Below, piece after piece: positions 29,809-33,504 of a stretch of DNA of 37,201 nucleotides. The stretch spans positions 1 through 37,201 of the forward strand of contig CAMEWO010000021.1 of assembly GCA_945946665.1 (NCBI GenBank). The letters run 5' to 3'. Position 1 is the stretch's first letter. Each line of letters starts with the position of its first letter. A program made the position numbers and the translations under genes. This DNA comes from an uncultured Eubacterium sp. (GTDB taxonomy: Bacteria > Bacillota > Clostridia > Lachnospirales > Lachnospiraceae). The notes under the pieces are model-generated. The model saw only the letters and a program-made list of their open reading frames with translations. It was not told the DNA's origin and did no database searches.

Positions 29809-30867
29809 TTAATCTTTTCTAAGGTGAACAGCATTACGGGCTTTACGCTTGTTCTCGTCAACAAGTTCTGCATAGTGTTTCCTTGTTGTATTAACGTCTT
29901 TGTGTCCCAAAACATCAGCAACAAGATAGATATCCTTTGTTTCCTGATAAAGATTAGTACCATATGTACTTCTCAGCTTATGAGGAGTGATATGTTTTAC
30001 AGTTGTAACTGTCTGAGAGTATTTCTTTACCAGAAGTTCTACAGACCTTACACAGAGACGTTTATTTTTTGATGATATAAATAATGCATTCTCGTGACCT
30101 GGCTCCGGATTAAGGGTTTTACGCTCTTGTAGATAATTAAATAGTGCTTCATGAACTTCATCACCAAAATACACAAAGCTTTCTGTTCCACCTTTTCTTA
30201 CAACCTTAATTCTGTCATTATCAAAATCTACATCATTAATATCAAGACCTACACATTCAGATACACGGATTCCAGTTCCAAGCATTAATGTTAGTAGTGC
30301 TAAATCCCTGTTCTTAAGCTTTTCATGCCTTTTAAGCTGGTTAAGAGATAATTTGTTGCCGGATTCCACATTATCAAGGAATTCGGATACTTCGTTAACA
30401 TCAAGCCTGGTGATAGCCTGTTCATGAATCTTAGGCATATCTACAAGCTGTGTTGGATTAGATGTAATAAGCTGATATCTGAAGAAAAAATTATACATTC
30501 CACGGAGAGAGCAGAGCTTACGTTTGGCAGCTTTCTCAGAGTTAGTTACAACAGAACCATCTCTGGAATATGCTTTAACATACCTCATATAATTGTTTAT
30601 ATCCTGTCCGGAAAGTTTCTCTAAATCTTTAATATTAAATTCCTTAATGGATTCATAATTAAAAAGATTAGAATTAAAGCACAAATATTCAAAGAATCCT
30701 TTAATATCCATTGCATAAGCAACTTTAGTCCTTGGCTGTTTAGTATATTCAAGACTGTCAAAATACTGCATGCAAAAATCAGGTAGTTCATGCAAAAGTG
30801 AAGTAAGCTGTTGTGAATATTTAATATTTTGTTGTTGTGTATATGTCTTAGATGAAGTATCTGCCAT
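29809..30867 (-). CDS. XerS-sized tyrosine recombinase
   Basis: Site-specific recombinase of 352 residues. The N-terminal core-binding SAM-like domain (about 25-135) is followed by the catalytic domain (about 150-345). The full set of active residues is visible: Arg201 in TGIRVSE, Lys225 in VRKGG, His296 and Arg299 in HKLRS, His322 in LGHKD and nucleophile Tyr332 in RKHY. It is longer than XerC/XerD (about 300) and close in size to the single-recombinase XerS of streptococci. ATG 30867 follows AGAGGT; the frame stays open to 30960 but that extension runs into the palindrome upstream. A near-perfect palindrome with a 6-bp centre lies 87 bases upstream, a plausible recombination site. No phage or transposon genes accompany it. 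Confidence 0.88.
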   Translation of the reverse strand: MADTSSKTYTQQQNIKYSQQLTSLLHELPDFCMQYFDSLEYTKQPRTKVAYAMDIKGFFEYLCFNSNLFNYESIKEFNIKDLEKLSGQDINNYMRYVKAYSRDGSVVTNSEKAAKRKLCSLRGMYNFFFRYQLITSNPTQLVDMPKIHEQAITRLDVNEVSEFLDNVESGNKLSLNQLKRHEKLKNRDLALLTLMLGTGIRVSECVGLDINDVDFDNDRIKVVRKGGTESFVYFGDEVHEALFNYLQERKTLNPEPGHENALFISSKNKRLCVRSVELLVKKYSQTVTTVKHITPHKLRSTYGTNLYQETKDIYLVADVLGHKDVNTTRKHYAELVDENKRKARNAVHLRKD

Positions 30868-30954
30868 AAAACTACCTCTGAATATGAAAATAATTGTCCT
30901 ATGAGATGAATTCTTTAGAAGCAAAGCAACTACGGAAGGGGGATTAGTATATAA

Positions 30955-30996
30955 ATACATAACTTCGCTAAAGTCCAGTTTAACGAAGTTATGTAT
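30955..30996. repeat. 42-bp palindrome with asymmetric centre; candidate lox/dif-like recombination site
   Basis: Two 18-base arms (30955-30972 and 30979-30996) match as inverted repeats at 17 of 18 positions around a non-palindromic 6-base centre, GTCCAG (30973-30978). The geometry suits a tyrosine recombinase: two binding arms and a 6 to 8 bp crossover region whose asymmetry sets direction. Each arm contains ATAACTTCG, identical to the outer nine bases of the phage P1 loxP arms. Centred as a 34-mer (30959-30992), the arms match loxP at 10 and 11 of 13 positions. It lies between the helicase stop and the recombinase start. As RNA it could form a hairpin, but it is AT-rich and lacks a T-run. 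Confidence 0.65.
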
Positions 30997-31015
30997 ATAG
31001 ATTTACAACAGTGTA

Positions 31016-32158
31016 TTACTTTGAAACCAATTTCCCATTATATAGTCTTTTTTGAATCATATTAATGTTAAACTGTTTCTGTAGCTTTTTTATCTTAAAT
31101 AGTTCGTTCTCTGTTATGATTGATATACATAAACCTGGCTTGTTATTACGTCCACAACGACCAGCTCTGTGCTGATAATCTGTATTATCTTCAGGAAGGT
31201 TAAGATTAATTACAGCTTCTATATTATCGAACTGAAGACCTCTTGCAGATACATCTGTTGAAAGCAGATAATTTATCTTTCCATTAGCAAAGTCATCAAT
31301 AGCTTTTTTCTTTTCATTCTTATCTTTATTTCCTGATACAGATGCAACCTTATAATGATGATATTCAAGCTTTTGAAAGGTTTCATCCAGGTCATATTTT
31401 GTATTAATAAATATAATTGATTTCTTGCTGTTAATTGCCTTAACAACTTTTCTTAATGTTTCAATACGTTCTCTGCGGTCTGTTATTATATAAATATGCT
31501 TAATTGTCTTTGGAATCAGATTGTTTTCCTTCTGGCACAGATTATATATTACAGGTTTGTATGTGAAATCATTTGCCTGCTTGATTGTTTTGTTGGAAAT
31601 TGATGCTGAGAACAACAAAACCTGTGTTCTTTTCATACATGATCTTCTGATTGATAAAACATTATCAAAGTTTGATTTATCAAAAAGCTTGTCTGCTTCA
31701 TCAAGAACAATGGTTTTTACGTCGTGTACATGTAGTTTCTTGTTATCAATAAGCTGTTTTACTCTTCCAGGTGTTCCAATAACATAAACCGGTTTCTTTT
31801 TAAGCTGTTCAGTCTGCCTTGTGATGTTACCATCACCTATTAGTACGCAGGATTTATCGTGAATCAAATCATTGCCATATATATTCTGAATAAGCTTATT
31901 GATTTGCATACACAGCTCCTGTGATGATGTTATGATTAATACCTGGACTGTTTTTAAGGTAATATCAGTTGAGGAAATCAAAGGAAGAAGGTATGCCAGA
32001 GTCTTTCCTGTTCCGGTGGGTGAGGATAATATAAGGTCTCTTCCTTCTTTAATTGTATTAAATGATTTTACCTGTACTTCATTAGGGTCTTTAATGTTAT
32101 ATACATTATATAAATTATCAATAATCTGTTGTGGTAATGAATAATCATAAAATGACAT
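31016..32158 (-). CDS. DEAD-box RNA helicase
   Basis: ATP-dependent RNA helicase of 380 residues, about the minimal two-RecA-domain core without a C-terminal extension. Motifs in order: Q-motif Gln29, Walker A SPTGTGKT (46-53), TPGR (about 128-131), DEAD (152-155), SAS (183-185, in place of the usual SAT), RGLQFD and HRAGRCGR near 320-345. Its closest role classes are ribosome assembly or mRNA turnover; substrate unknown. GAGGT eight bases before the ATG (complement of 32156-32158) is the ribosome site. A promoter and a 5' UTR hairpin are visible upstream. Transcription may continue into the recombinase gene. Confidence 0.92.
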   Translation of the reverse strand: MSFYDYSLPQQIIDNLYNVYNIKDPNEVQVKSFNTIKEGRDLILSSPTGTGKTLAYLLPLISSTDITLKTVQVLIITSSQELCMQINKLIQNIYGNDLIHDKSCVLIGDGNITRQTEQLKKKPVYVIGTPGRVKQLIDNKKLHVHDVKTIVLDEADKLFDKSNFDNVLSIRRSCMKRTQVLLFSASISNKTIKQANDFTYKPVIYNLCQKENNLIPKTIKHIYIITDRRERIETLRKVVKAINSKKSIIFINTKYDLDETFQKLEYHHYKVASVSGNKDKNEKKKAIDDFANGKINYLLSTDVSARGLQFDNIEAVINLNLPEDNTDYQHRAGRCGRNNKPGLCISIITENELFKIKKLQKQFNINMIQKRLYNGKLVSK

Positions 32159-32287: not shown

Positions 32288-32677
32288 TTATTTTAATTCA
32301 TCCGAATAATAATATATAATTAAATCCTGTCCGGAATAAATTGTTTCATCTGTCATATTATTAATTGACATGATGTTGTTCACATATGTTTTTGGTTTTT
32401 CTTTATATGAGTATTCATTAGCAATGTCCCACAGTGTATCATCAGCTTTAACGGTTACACTTGTAAAATACTTATGCATGGTTTTATCTTCTTTGTCAGA
32501 TGCATTAACAATATGTATGCTGCAGGAAATAGTTATTATAATTGCAAGGACTGCAACTATAATAAAAACAGGATTTAAATGAAAATGTGTTCTTGTGCTT
32601 CTGTGTCTGTGCTTTCTGCTGCTCTTCTGCATGCTTTCATATCTATGTGAATTAATATTGTGGCGTGTATTACTCAT
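32288..32677 (-). CDS. YneA-like membrane LysM protein, probable SOS division inhibitor
   Basis: A 129-residue protein with a His/Arg/Ser-rich cytoplasmic N-terminus (about 1-34), one membrane segment (about 36-58, VFIIVAVLAIIITISCSIHIV) and an extracytoplasmic LysM domain (about 72-126; VKADDTLWDIANEYS to YSGQDLIIYY). Size, topology, LysM domain and divergent position next to lexA match Bacillus YneA, which is induced by DNA damage and delays division. GGAGG seven bases before the ATG (complement of 32675-32677) makes translation efficient. The promoter is a full sigma-A consensus overlapped by LexA-like boxes, as expected for a gene that must be silent and then strongly induced. The functional assignment is by context, since sequence identity to YneA cannot be measured here. 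Confidence 0.8.
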   Translation of the reverse strand: MSNTRHNINSHRYESMQKSSRKHRHRSTRTHFHLNPVFIIVAVLAIIITISCSIHIVNASDKEDKTMHKYFTSVTVKADDTLWDIANEYSYKEKPKTYVNNIMSINNMTDETIYSGQDLIIYYYSDELK

Positions 32678-32714
32678 AGTTAAGTTCCTCCATAATCATA
32701 TATTGATATATTAT

Positions 32715-32740
32715 AAACATCTGTTCAGAACAATTGTTCT
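32715..32740. promoter_or_regulatory. LexA-box-like operators at the yneA-like start region
   Basis: AGAACAATTGTTCT (32727-32740) is a perfect palindrome with the GAAC-N4-GTTC core of Firmicute SOS boxes. Abutting it, AAACATCTGTTC (32715-32726) is a one-mismatch half-matching copy. They lie just downstream of the predicted transcription start of the yneA-like gene (near 32747), where LexA would block elongation or initiation. Confidence 0.8.
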
Positions 32741-32753
32741 TATCTTGCTTTGA

Positions 32754-32782
32754 ATTATAGAATACAAACATTTGTTTGTCAA
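32754..32782 (-). promoter_or_regulatory. full-consensus sigma-A promoter of the yneA-like gene
   Basis: On the minus strand, TTGACA (complement of 32777-32782) and TATAAT (complement of 32754-32759) are separated by exactly 17 bases: both hexamers and the spacing are perfect. The spacer is almost filled by a LexA-box-like palindrome. A start site near 32747 leaves a leader of about 70 bases. Confidence 0.85.
32765..32778. promoter_or_regulatory. LexA-box-like operator inside the yneA-like promoter spacer
   Basis: CAAACATTTGTTTG has symmetric halves (CAAAC and GTTTG) around four bases. It differs from the Bacillus SOS consensus CGAACRNRYGTTYG chiefly by A for G at the second base. It occupies the spacer and touches the -35 of the yneA-like promoter, an ideal site for repression. 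Confidence 0.65.
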
Positions 32783-32802
32783 TAAAAATCGAACAAATTT
32801 TT

Positions 32803-32816
32803 CGAACGTTTTTTCG
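32803..32816. promoter_or_regulatory. LexA-box-like operator upstream of the lexA promoter
   Basis: CGAACGTTTTTTCG matches CGAACRNRYGTTYG except for two positions, including T for the conserved G of the right half. It ends nine bases before the lexA -35 hexamer and could serve autoregulation. A second degenerate element (CGAAC to TTTCG, 32790-32804) with a one-base-longer spacing overlaps it. Confidence 0.5.
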
Positions 32817-32824
32817 GAAAAGAA

Positions 32825-32853
32825 TTGATTATCATTTTTTTATATGTTATTAT
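32825..32853 (+). promoter_or_regulatory. promoter of lexA
   Basis: TTGATT (32825-32830) and TATTAT (32848-32853) are 17 bases apart, with TG at 32845-32846 forming an extended -10. The start site would be near 32860, about 24 bases before the lexA ATG at 32884, leaving room for the GGAGG ribosome site only. Confidence 0.7.
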
Positions 32854-32883
32854 GGTGATAACAAAGATTGGAGGTTCTGTAAT

Positions 32884-33504
32884 ATGGCATATGGAAGGAT
32901 TACAAAGAAACAGACGGAGATTTTAGAATATATTAAAACACAGATACTTAACAAGGGATATCCACCTTCAGTAAGAGATATATGTCAGGCAGTTGATTTG
33001 AAGTCAACTTCTTCTGTTCATGCTCATTTAGAGACTCTTGAAAAGAATGGGTATATCAGAAGGGATCCTACTAAACCAAGAGCTATTGAGATTATTGATG
33101 ATAATTTTAATCTTACAAGGCGCGAGGTTGTTAATGTTCCTTTAGTTGGCCGTGTTGCGGCTGGTGAGCCTATTCTTGCTGTTGAGAATGTTGTAAGCTA
33201 CTTTCCTATTCCTGCTGAGTATATGCCTAATGAGGATGTATTTATGCTTACTGTAAAAGGAGAAAGCATGATTAACATGGGAATATATGATGGTGATAAC
33301 ATCATTGTGAGCAAGTGTAGTTCAGCCAGGAATGGTGAAGTTGTTGTTGCCCTTGTTGATGACTCTGCTACTGTTAAGAGATTTTACAAAGAAGACGGTC
33401 ATATAAGGCTTCAGCCTGAGAATGATTATATGGATCCTATTATTGTACCTGATTGCGAGATTCTTGGTAAAGTAATTGGACTTGTACGTCTTAATATTAG
33501 ATAA
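32884..33504 (+). CDS. lexA: SOS repressor LexA
   Basis: Represses DNA-damage genes and cleaves itself when stimulated by RecA filaments. The 206 residues have an N-terminal winged helix (MAYGRITKKQTEILEYI, GYPPSVRDICQAVDLKSTSSVHAHL) and a C-terminal S24 peptidase domain. The cleavage site is Ala93-Gly94 in GRVAAGEP; the catalytic dyad is Ser128 in KGESM and Lys165 in SATVKRF. All are intact. The frame is open from 32776, but ATG 32884, with GGAGG upstream and the canonical N-terminus, is the clear start; the extra upstream frame covers the promoter. It diverges from the yneA-like gene across a spacer with several LexA-like boxes. Confidence 0.97.
   Translation: MAYGRITKKQTEILEYIKTQILNKGYPPSVRDICQAVDLKSTSSVHAHLETLEKNGYIRRDPTKPRAIEIIDDNFNLTRREVVNVPLVGRVAAGEPILAVENVVSYFPIPAEYMPNEDVFMLTVKGESMINMGIYDGDNIIVSKCSSARNGEVVVALVDDSATVKRFYKEDGHIRLQPENDYMDPIIVPDCEILGKVIGLVRLNIR

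Follow-up and report, generated by a model that had tools for sequence, protein, structure and literature searches.

A probable dif site of a single-recombinase Xer system in Lachnospira and its counterpart on a second large replicon

Organization of the locus

The window, that is, the whole stretch of 37,201 nucleotides of DNA analysed here, constitutes contig C21 of a 2.45-Mb genome. A tyrosine recombinase gene and, upstream of it, a long palindrome have been located in the window; their features are as follows:

29809..30867, minus strand: Xer-type tyrosine recombinase of 352 aa, in a clade of its own related to XerS (profile matches and tree)
30955..30996, no strand assigned: full 42-bp palindrome (arm comparison), the outer parts of which vary between species
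30962..30989, minus strand: dif-like core in an 11+6+11 frame, read on the minus strand as ACTTCGTTAAA-CTGGAC-TTTAGCGAAGT; the core is found in 18 of 22 genomes of the genus
30973..30978, minus strand: central hexamer, GTCCAG on the plus and CTGGAC on the minus strand; suggested to serve as the overlap region and as the chromosome's replicon tag (centre comparison)

The two arms (30955–30972 and 30979–30996) match at 17 of 18 positions around the asymmetric hexamer GTCCAG at 30973–30978, as described in an initial annotation made from the letters of the window. The distance of 87 bases between gene and palindrome, given there as well, follows from the recombinase start codon at 30867, and the gene is indeed intact, encoding 352 residues with a match to PF00589 (1.6e-35). 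The window contains one palindrome of this type (18-base arms with at most one mismatch, 6-base centre); none was found in 30 first-order Markov sequences of window length, and the analytic expectation is 1e-4. The 42-bp palindrome is real and not a product of chance. At 32288–33504, next to lexA and 1.3–2.5 kb from the dif-like site, a LysM protein is encoded, the best match of which is the SOS division suppressor YneA (53.7 bits; cut-off 60).

The recombinase

The best NCBIfam model for the window enzyme is XerS (204.5 bits), yet neither this score nor the 199.8 bits obtained in the genome search reaches the XerS cut-off (NF003462, 267 bits), and the enzyme is 28–29% identical to three XerS proteins that exceed it. 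In a tree of 32 rows, built from chosen loci and with long branches flagged, the Lachnospirales enzymes form one clade (100/99) that is weakly joined to XerS (88/73). Each genome of the genus has one such recombinase. Across the family, the enzyme was recovered at E 1e-60 from 233 of 250 genomes, a few of them with two copies; the gene was absent at this threshold from 17 of the 250.

A separate xerC/xerD pair together with a standard dif had been named in the initial annotation as a finding that would speak against the proposed recombination site. As judged by the XerD model only, none of the 22 genus genomes carries a protein above the XerD cut-off, which is passed in 11 of 61 relatives, and in 11 of the 22 the enzyme described here is the sole match to this model at E 1e-30. 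The window genome holds two further Xer-like genes, both below the XerC and the XerD cut-offs. The FtsK gamma domain is present in 58 of the 61 relatives, the window genome included.

Other tyrosine recombinases were observed in the course of these searches. A 306-aa Xer-like recombinase below the XerC and XerD cut-offs is encoded on a 4.9-kb contig (L009, 74–994; G000 C46), and similar-scoring copies occur in G004, G006 and G013, with three in G016. Another (L010, 1015–2004; G000 C11) exceeds the XerA-type cut-off and is flanked by ORFs that resemble, by eye, specificity fragments of type I restriction systems, an arrangement like that of phase-variable hsdS loci. In G024 (L061, C2:102222–104500), a second, 46%-identical recombinase copy lies about 3 kb from the first and has an imperfect palindrome of its own upstream.

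Conserved core of the site in Lachnospira

Adjacency of palindrome and gene in related genomes, suggested earlier as a check, was found at 15 of the 16 distinct genus loci with this enzyme, where the core lies at most 130 bp upstream of the gene; at the sixteenth (G009) the two are 5.4 kb apart. Conservation was read from 35 genus sites in 18 genomes, which are partly non-independent (G003 and G008 are alike around the gene) and were collected by a scan that itself demanded the inner letters up to the C/T. The part kept is TTCGTTAAA-N6-TTTAGCGAA, mostly with AC/GT outside, which corresponds to an 11-6-11 dif frame, and a difference of T against C between the arms is kept in 33 of the 35 sites. 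In a looser search, allowing 3 mismatches in 28 positions, the mismatches of the accepted sites fall in the outermost two positions. The outer arms are variable, contiguous outer pairing being absent in 15 of the 35 sites; since the inner letters and the T/C difference are kept and the outer pairing varies, it is the letters, the small asymmetry and the frame that are conserved, not a hairpin. A need for a long cruciform was rejected, as the long outer arms are not kept in the 35 sites.

Each arm in the window also contains ATAACTTCG, which we take to be the outer nine bases of the phage P1 loxP arms. The nine-mer is present as annotated, but it is not conserved, occurring in both arms of 3 of the 35 genus sites (read by eye), and the 34-bp lox frame of 13+8+13 that had been fitted to the site is unsupported, the conserved unit being the 11-6-11 core at 30962–30989.

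A genus-wide search for the core gave matches in 18 of 22 genomes, and its reversed-pattern control gave none in all 22. At least two accepted sites are present in 16 of the 22; the two genomes with a single site are 86% and 72% complete. No site was matched by this search in G010, G015 and G018 (genomes 59–84% complete). Of three matches in the window genome, the one on contig C1, with three mismatches and broken inner letters, was discarded as chance. The arms of the sites agree within a genome. A third site was recorded in G003 (L102, 3001–3028; the 12-kb contig C26), with the centre TTAGAC.

G014 has no match to the genus motif; its enzyme is about 43% identical and the arms of its site differ (CGCCGATAAA). 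Searching with the G014 arms gave two perfect matches, at the gene and on a different contig, with the centres TCCTGC and TCTCAG; two matches with three mismatches were discarded, and the control gave one match. At the recombinase locus (L060, contig C22), the site stands at −89 of this divergent genus recombinase, and the changed arms are seen on both sites of the genome. Of the evidence gathered, G014 speaks most strongly for a link between arms and enzyme, and a replacement of the whole system is likely here.

Position relative to the terminus

On the L. eligens chromosome the site lies at 1,024,257, and the skew passes from +0.24 (to 1,020,000) to −0.14 (from 1,040,001). The expected nearness to the GC-skew switch was seen in the window too: among the stretches analysed, within which the cumulative-skew peaks were computed, the peak falls 2.6 kb from the site in the window and 1.2 kb from it in G008 C4. 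To the right of the site, the window skew is about zero, not clearly negative, until about 35 kb. In nine of ten genomes, the recombinase gene is separated from dnaA by 0.455–0.54 of the circle, and in the tenth by 0.38; these are nine single-contig genomes and L. eligens, with fractions computed by hand and four of them based on rounded lengths. They represent those of 12 genomes searched for dnaA that had both positions among the matches listed.

The site had also been expected once per chromosome. This holds in the complete L. eligens genome, which has one site per replicon, but counted per genome there are two sites or more in 16 of the 22 genomes of the genus.

The second large replicon

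In G002, which matches L. eligens ATCC 27750, a 6-kb stretch of contig C2 is 100% identical to NC_012780.1, a replicon of 626,744 bp typed as non-mobilizable, with gltX, mnmA, ParA and a ParB-domain protein aboard. The second L. eligens site lies at 340,494 of this replicon and is present in NZ_CP085937.1 too; the small third contig of G002 has no site at up to 3 mismatches. The second site of the window genome is on contig C9, where 13 of 14 assigned reading frames match NC_012780.1; in the window, 14 of 14 are chromosomal. By the same assignment, G008 C4 is chromosomal (33/33), and G008 C5 (6/7) and G012 C13 (44/44) match the second replicon. The counts include frames that overlap one another on opposite strands; the reference sample spans roughly one fifth of C1, with dense coverage near the terminus, and two thirds of C2. 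Flanks of the sites in G017, G019 and G009 C33 match the region around the second L. eligens site. The replicon assignment of sites rests on part of the genomes, and several second-site contigs gave unclear matches. No such recombinase is encoded next to the second site.

On C9, the site at 45.0 kb is followed by ParA/ParB-like genes at 55.9–58.0 kb, 11–13 kb away. The ParB-like match scores 24.3 bits against a Pfam cut-off of 26.3, and the frame shares 72% identity with a frame of the L. eligens stretch at 279–299 kb. On NC_012780.1, ParA/ParB are located at 290.6–292.6 kb, 48–50 kb from the site. The cumulative-skew peak falls 208 bp from the C9 site (searched over 1–57.5 kb) and 300 bp from that of G012 C13; it is off the site by 11.5 kb on NC_012780.1 and by 32 kb on G008 C5. 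The skew of C9 is reversed from the site to about 58.2 kb. Sampled skew on NC_012780.1 is negative nearly all round, positive near 196–203 kb, and mixed, with positive stretches, between about 300 and 340 kb. From the skew and the positions of ParA/ParB, the second replicon looks almost unidirectional, with its putative dif near the origin region. Apart from the two second-replicon offsets and the third G003 site, and among the contigs assigned to a replicon, the sites are found one per replicon at a skew switch or terminus.

Centres of paired sites

The centres of the two sites of a genome differ at 3–5 of 6 bases in all 17 genomes compared, and reversing the reading direction of sites with symmetric arms leaves this unchanged; replicons have been assigned for part of these genomes. 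In the window genome, CTGGAC and the CAATGA of the second site differ at 5 of 6 positions. The third G003 centre is 2 of 6 bases from the recombinase-side centre and 5 of 6 from the other. When the 13 distinct pairs were shuffled, a minimum difference as large occurred in 0.75% of cases and a mean as large in 3.8%, a modest test that ignores relatedness and from which the third G003 site was left out. The centre CAAGAC belongs to the recombinase-side site in G009 and to the other site in G019.

Distribution of the motif in Lachnospiraceae

The upstream regions of 54 loci were examined (G014 plus 53 loci from other genera; at most 2 kb per locus, 76 kb altogether); 18 contain the relaxed motif with at most one mismatch, and none the reversed control. 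In 1.2 Mb of other sequence there were five motif matches, each a known site, and four control matches. The exact motif is present in 134 of 250 family genomes versus 34 of 250 for the control (control counted by eye), and absent in 116 of the 250. Among the matches listed, 26 of 47 motif–gene pairs on the same contig are less than 1 kb apart and 43 of 47 less than 10 kb; in G030, G076, G262 and G292 the motif is listed on a contig other than that of the gene.

The plasmid sample comprised three large Lachnospiraceae plasmids outside Lachnospira. In B. fibrisolvens pNP243, an exact motif stands at 125,198 of 242,710, opposite the replication gene; skew near it is weak, with a peak at 134,684 (within 100–150 kb). 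pCY360 and the 252-kb plasmid of A. rectalis have no motif at up to one mismatch. Five records searched gave 0, 1, 0, 1 and 1 motifs, all exact, versus 3, 0, 0, 2 and 2 for the reversed control.

An exact-pattern scan returned seven stretches. Four of them, all from Clostridium, carry the same 34-bp palindrome with ATAACTTCGCTAAA arms (L001 5217–5250, L002 2419–2452, L003 2359–2392, L007 3523–3556), upstream of a tyrosine recombinase at a distance of 16 to about 410 bases; this recombinase is 29–30% identical to the window enzyme. The L001 recombinase, the one scanned, is XerC/XerD-like (219 bits for XerC, 147 for XerS), and the tree places the three Clostridium recombinases that it includes next to XerD and not within the Lachnospirales clade, on long branches that were flagged; because of this enzyme type and the other clade, the Clostridium sites were rejected as the same system and look like a parallel. 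In L001 a gene that is LexA-like by eye follows the recombinase. For the Flavobacterium stretch (L006), no recombinase was recognised by eye among the ORFs of at least 120 aa in 8 kb.

Alternative explanations

The initial annotation had offered, besides dimer resolution, a lox-like switch. In a lox-like or invertible switch, DNA lying between the sites would be inverted or cut out by the recombinase. The nine bases that the palindromic arms share with lox and the adjoining gene would suit such a switch, but this reading is extremely improbable: L. eligens has one site per replicon and none on its small third contig (at most 3 mismatches), the centres differ in 17 of 17 genomes, and the gene lies near the terminus in other genera. 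The lox nine-mer, found in both arms of only 3 of 35 sites, is a species quirk on a conserved 11-6-11 unit. A role of the palindrome as RNA hairpin or as terminator of the helicase gene before it is hardly probable either. The palindrome is a strong inverted repeat 19–20 bases beyond the end of that gene, yet a terminator search of 30700–31200 found no terminator-like site, the same motif occurs in other gene contexts on the second replicon, and selection for a hairpin only, listed beforehand as a possible refutation, disagrees with the 35 genus sites, in which letters rather than pairing are conserved (outer pairing not contiguous in 15, inner letters and T/C asymmetry kept).

The position of the site within 130 bp upstream of the gene at 15 of 16 genus loci would also fit an operator by which the recombinase controls its own gene, the other sites being incidental. 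Such self-control, suggested earlier, is possible in the window but is not a general role, since the second site lacks an adjacent recombinase of this kind and site–gene distances in other genera range from 35 bp to 37 kb among the matches listed. With 21 of 47 same-contig pairs of other genera more than 1 kb apart (again among the matches listed) and the G009 site 5.4 kb from its gene, we hold the operator reading to be very unlikely. Dimer resolution by a single-recombinase Xer system, the other proposal of the initial annotation, is well supported by gene adjacency, the skew switch, the terminus and the lack of genus proteins above the XerD cut-off, and the palindrome is very probably the chromosomal dif site of such a system in Lachnospira.

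Comparison with known systems

The site resembles Cre/lox of phage P1 in the nine outer arm bases. Unlike in Cre/lox, the enzyme matches Xer models, the shared bases are unconserved and the frame differs.

A closer likeness is found in XerS/difSL of streptococci and lactococci. A review (PMC5357621) describes this system as a module in which a lone recombinase of about 356 aa is encoded directly beside its site, difSL being a 31-bp site with an 11-bp centre. The Lachnospira system likewise links a single recombinase to its site (15 of 16 genus loci), and among NCBIfam models the window enzyme scores highest with XerS, yet it is under the cut-off and in its own clade, and in contrast to difSL the genus site has 28 bp in an 11-6-11 arrangement.

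Replicon-specific dif centres are already known in Proteobacteria. According to Val 2008 (PMC2533119), dif1 and dif2 of Vibrio cholerae and the sites of multi-chromosome Proteobacteria have divergent centres with one machinery for two replicons, and fusion avoidance was proposed as the reason for the divergence. Whereas V. cholerae uses XerC and XerD, here there is one recombinase, in Bacillota, with its gene beside the chromosomal site. In the unidirectional chromids of Pseudoalteromonas, dif2 lies 4–27 kb from the chromid origin (PMC7858055). The second site is comparable in lying 11–13 kb (C9) or 48–50 kb (NC_012780.1) from ParA/ParB-like genes; unlike in Pseudoalteromonas, the phylum and the recombinase system are different and the direction is inferred from skew. 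Fournes 2025 reports an XerCD site on all enterobacterial replicons above 250 kb.

Among the matches listed in open-licence literature, no Lachnospiraceae single-recombinase dif system, no second-replicon dif of this family and no case of one recombinase serving two replicons was found; Xie 2021 was covered without its Table S1, where L. eligens may be listed. The available parts of Kono 2011 (PMC3025954), Castillo 2017 (PMC5357621) and Smyshlyaev 2021 (PMC8138268) describe no single-recombinase system in Clostridia or Lachnospiraceae.

Proposed mechanism and significance

In the proposed mechanism, two sister sites would be bound at their arms by four recombinase copies, which would cleave at the borders of the 6-bp centre and carry out strand exchange, so that a dimeric circle would be resolved into two monomers. 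The FtsK translocase with its gamma domain probably brings the terminus to the septum at resolution, and the one-base T/C asymmetry of the arms (33 of 35 sites) may give the site its direction. Strand exchange by tyrosine recombinases requires matching centres; each replicon would therefore recombine with its own sister, and chromosome and second replicon would stay unfused.

From these comparisons we lean towards a joint reading. In it, one Xer recombinase would serve all large replicons in a cell of the Bacillota, and selection would keep the 6-bp centres different as tags of replicon identity. The recombinase could change together with the arms at both sites (G014), and the dif of the second replicon would lie only about 12 kb from the partition and probable origin region.

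The results point to a dimer-resolution system that is likely to be that of the Lachnospiraceae, a large family of gut bacteria, and to a site motif that may be used for locating termini. The rule known from Proteobacteria, that each replicon has its own dif centre, would extend to Bacillota with one recombinase, and the idea of fusion avoidance would thereby become testable with one enzyme and short sites. G014, in turn, poses the question of how a recombinase and both of its sites may change specificity together.
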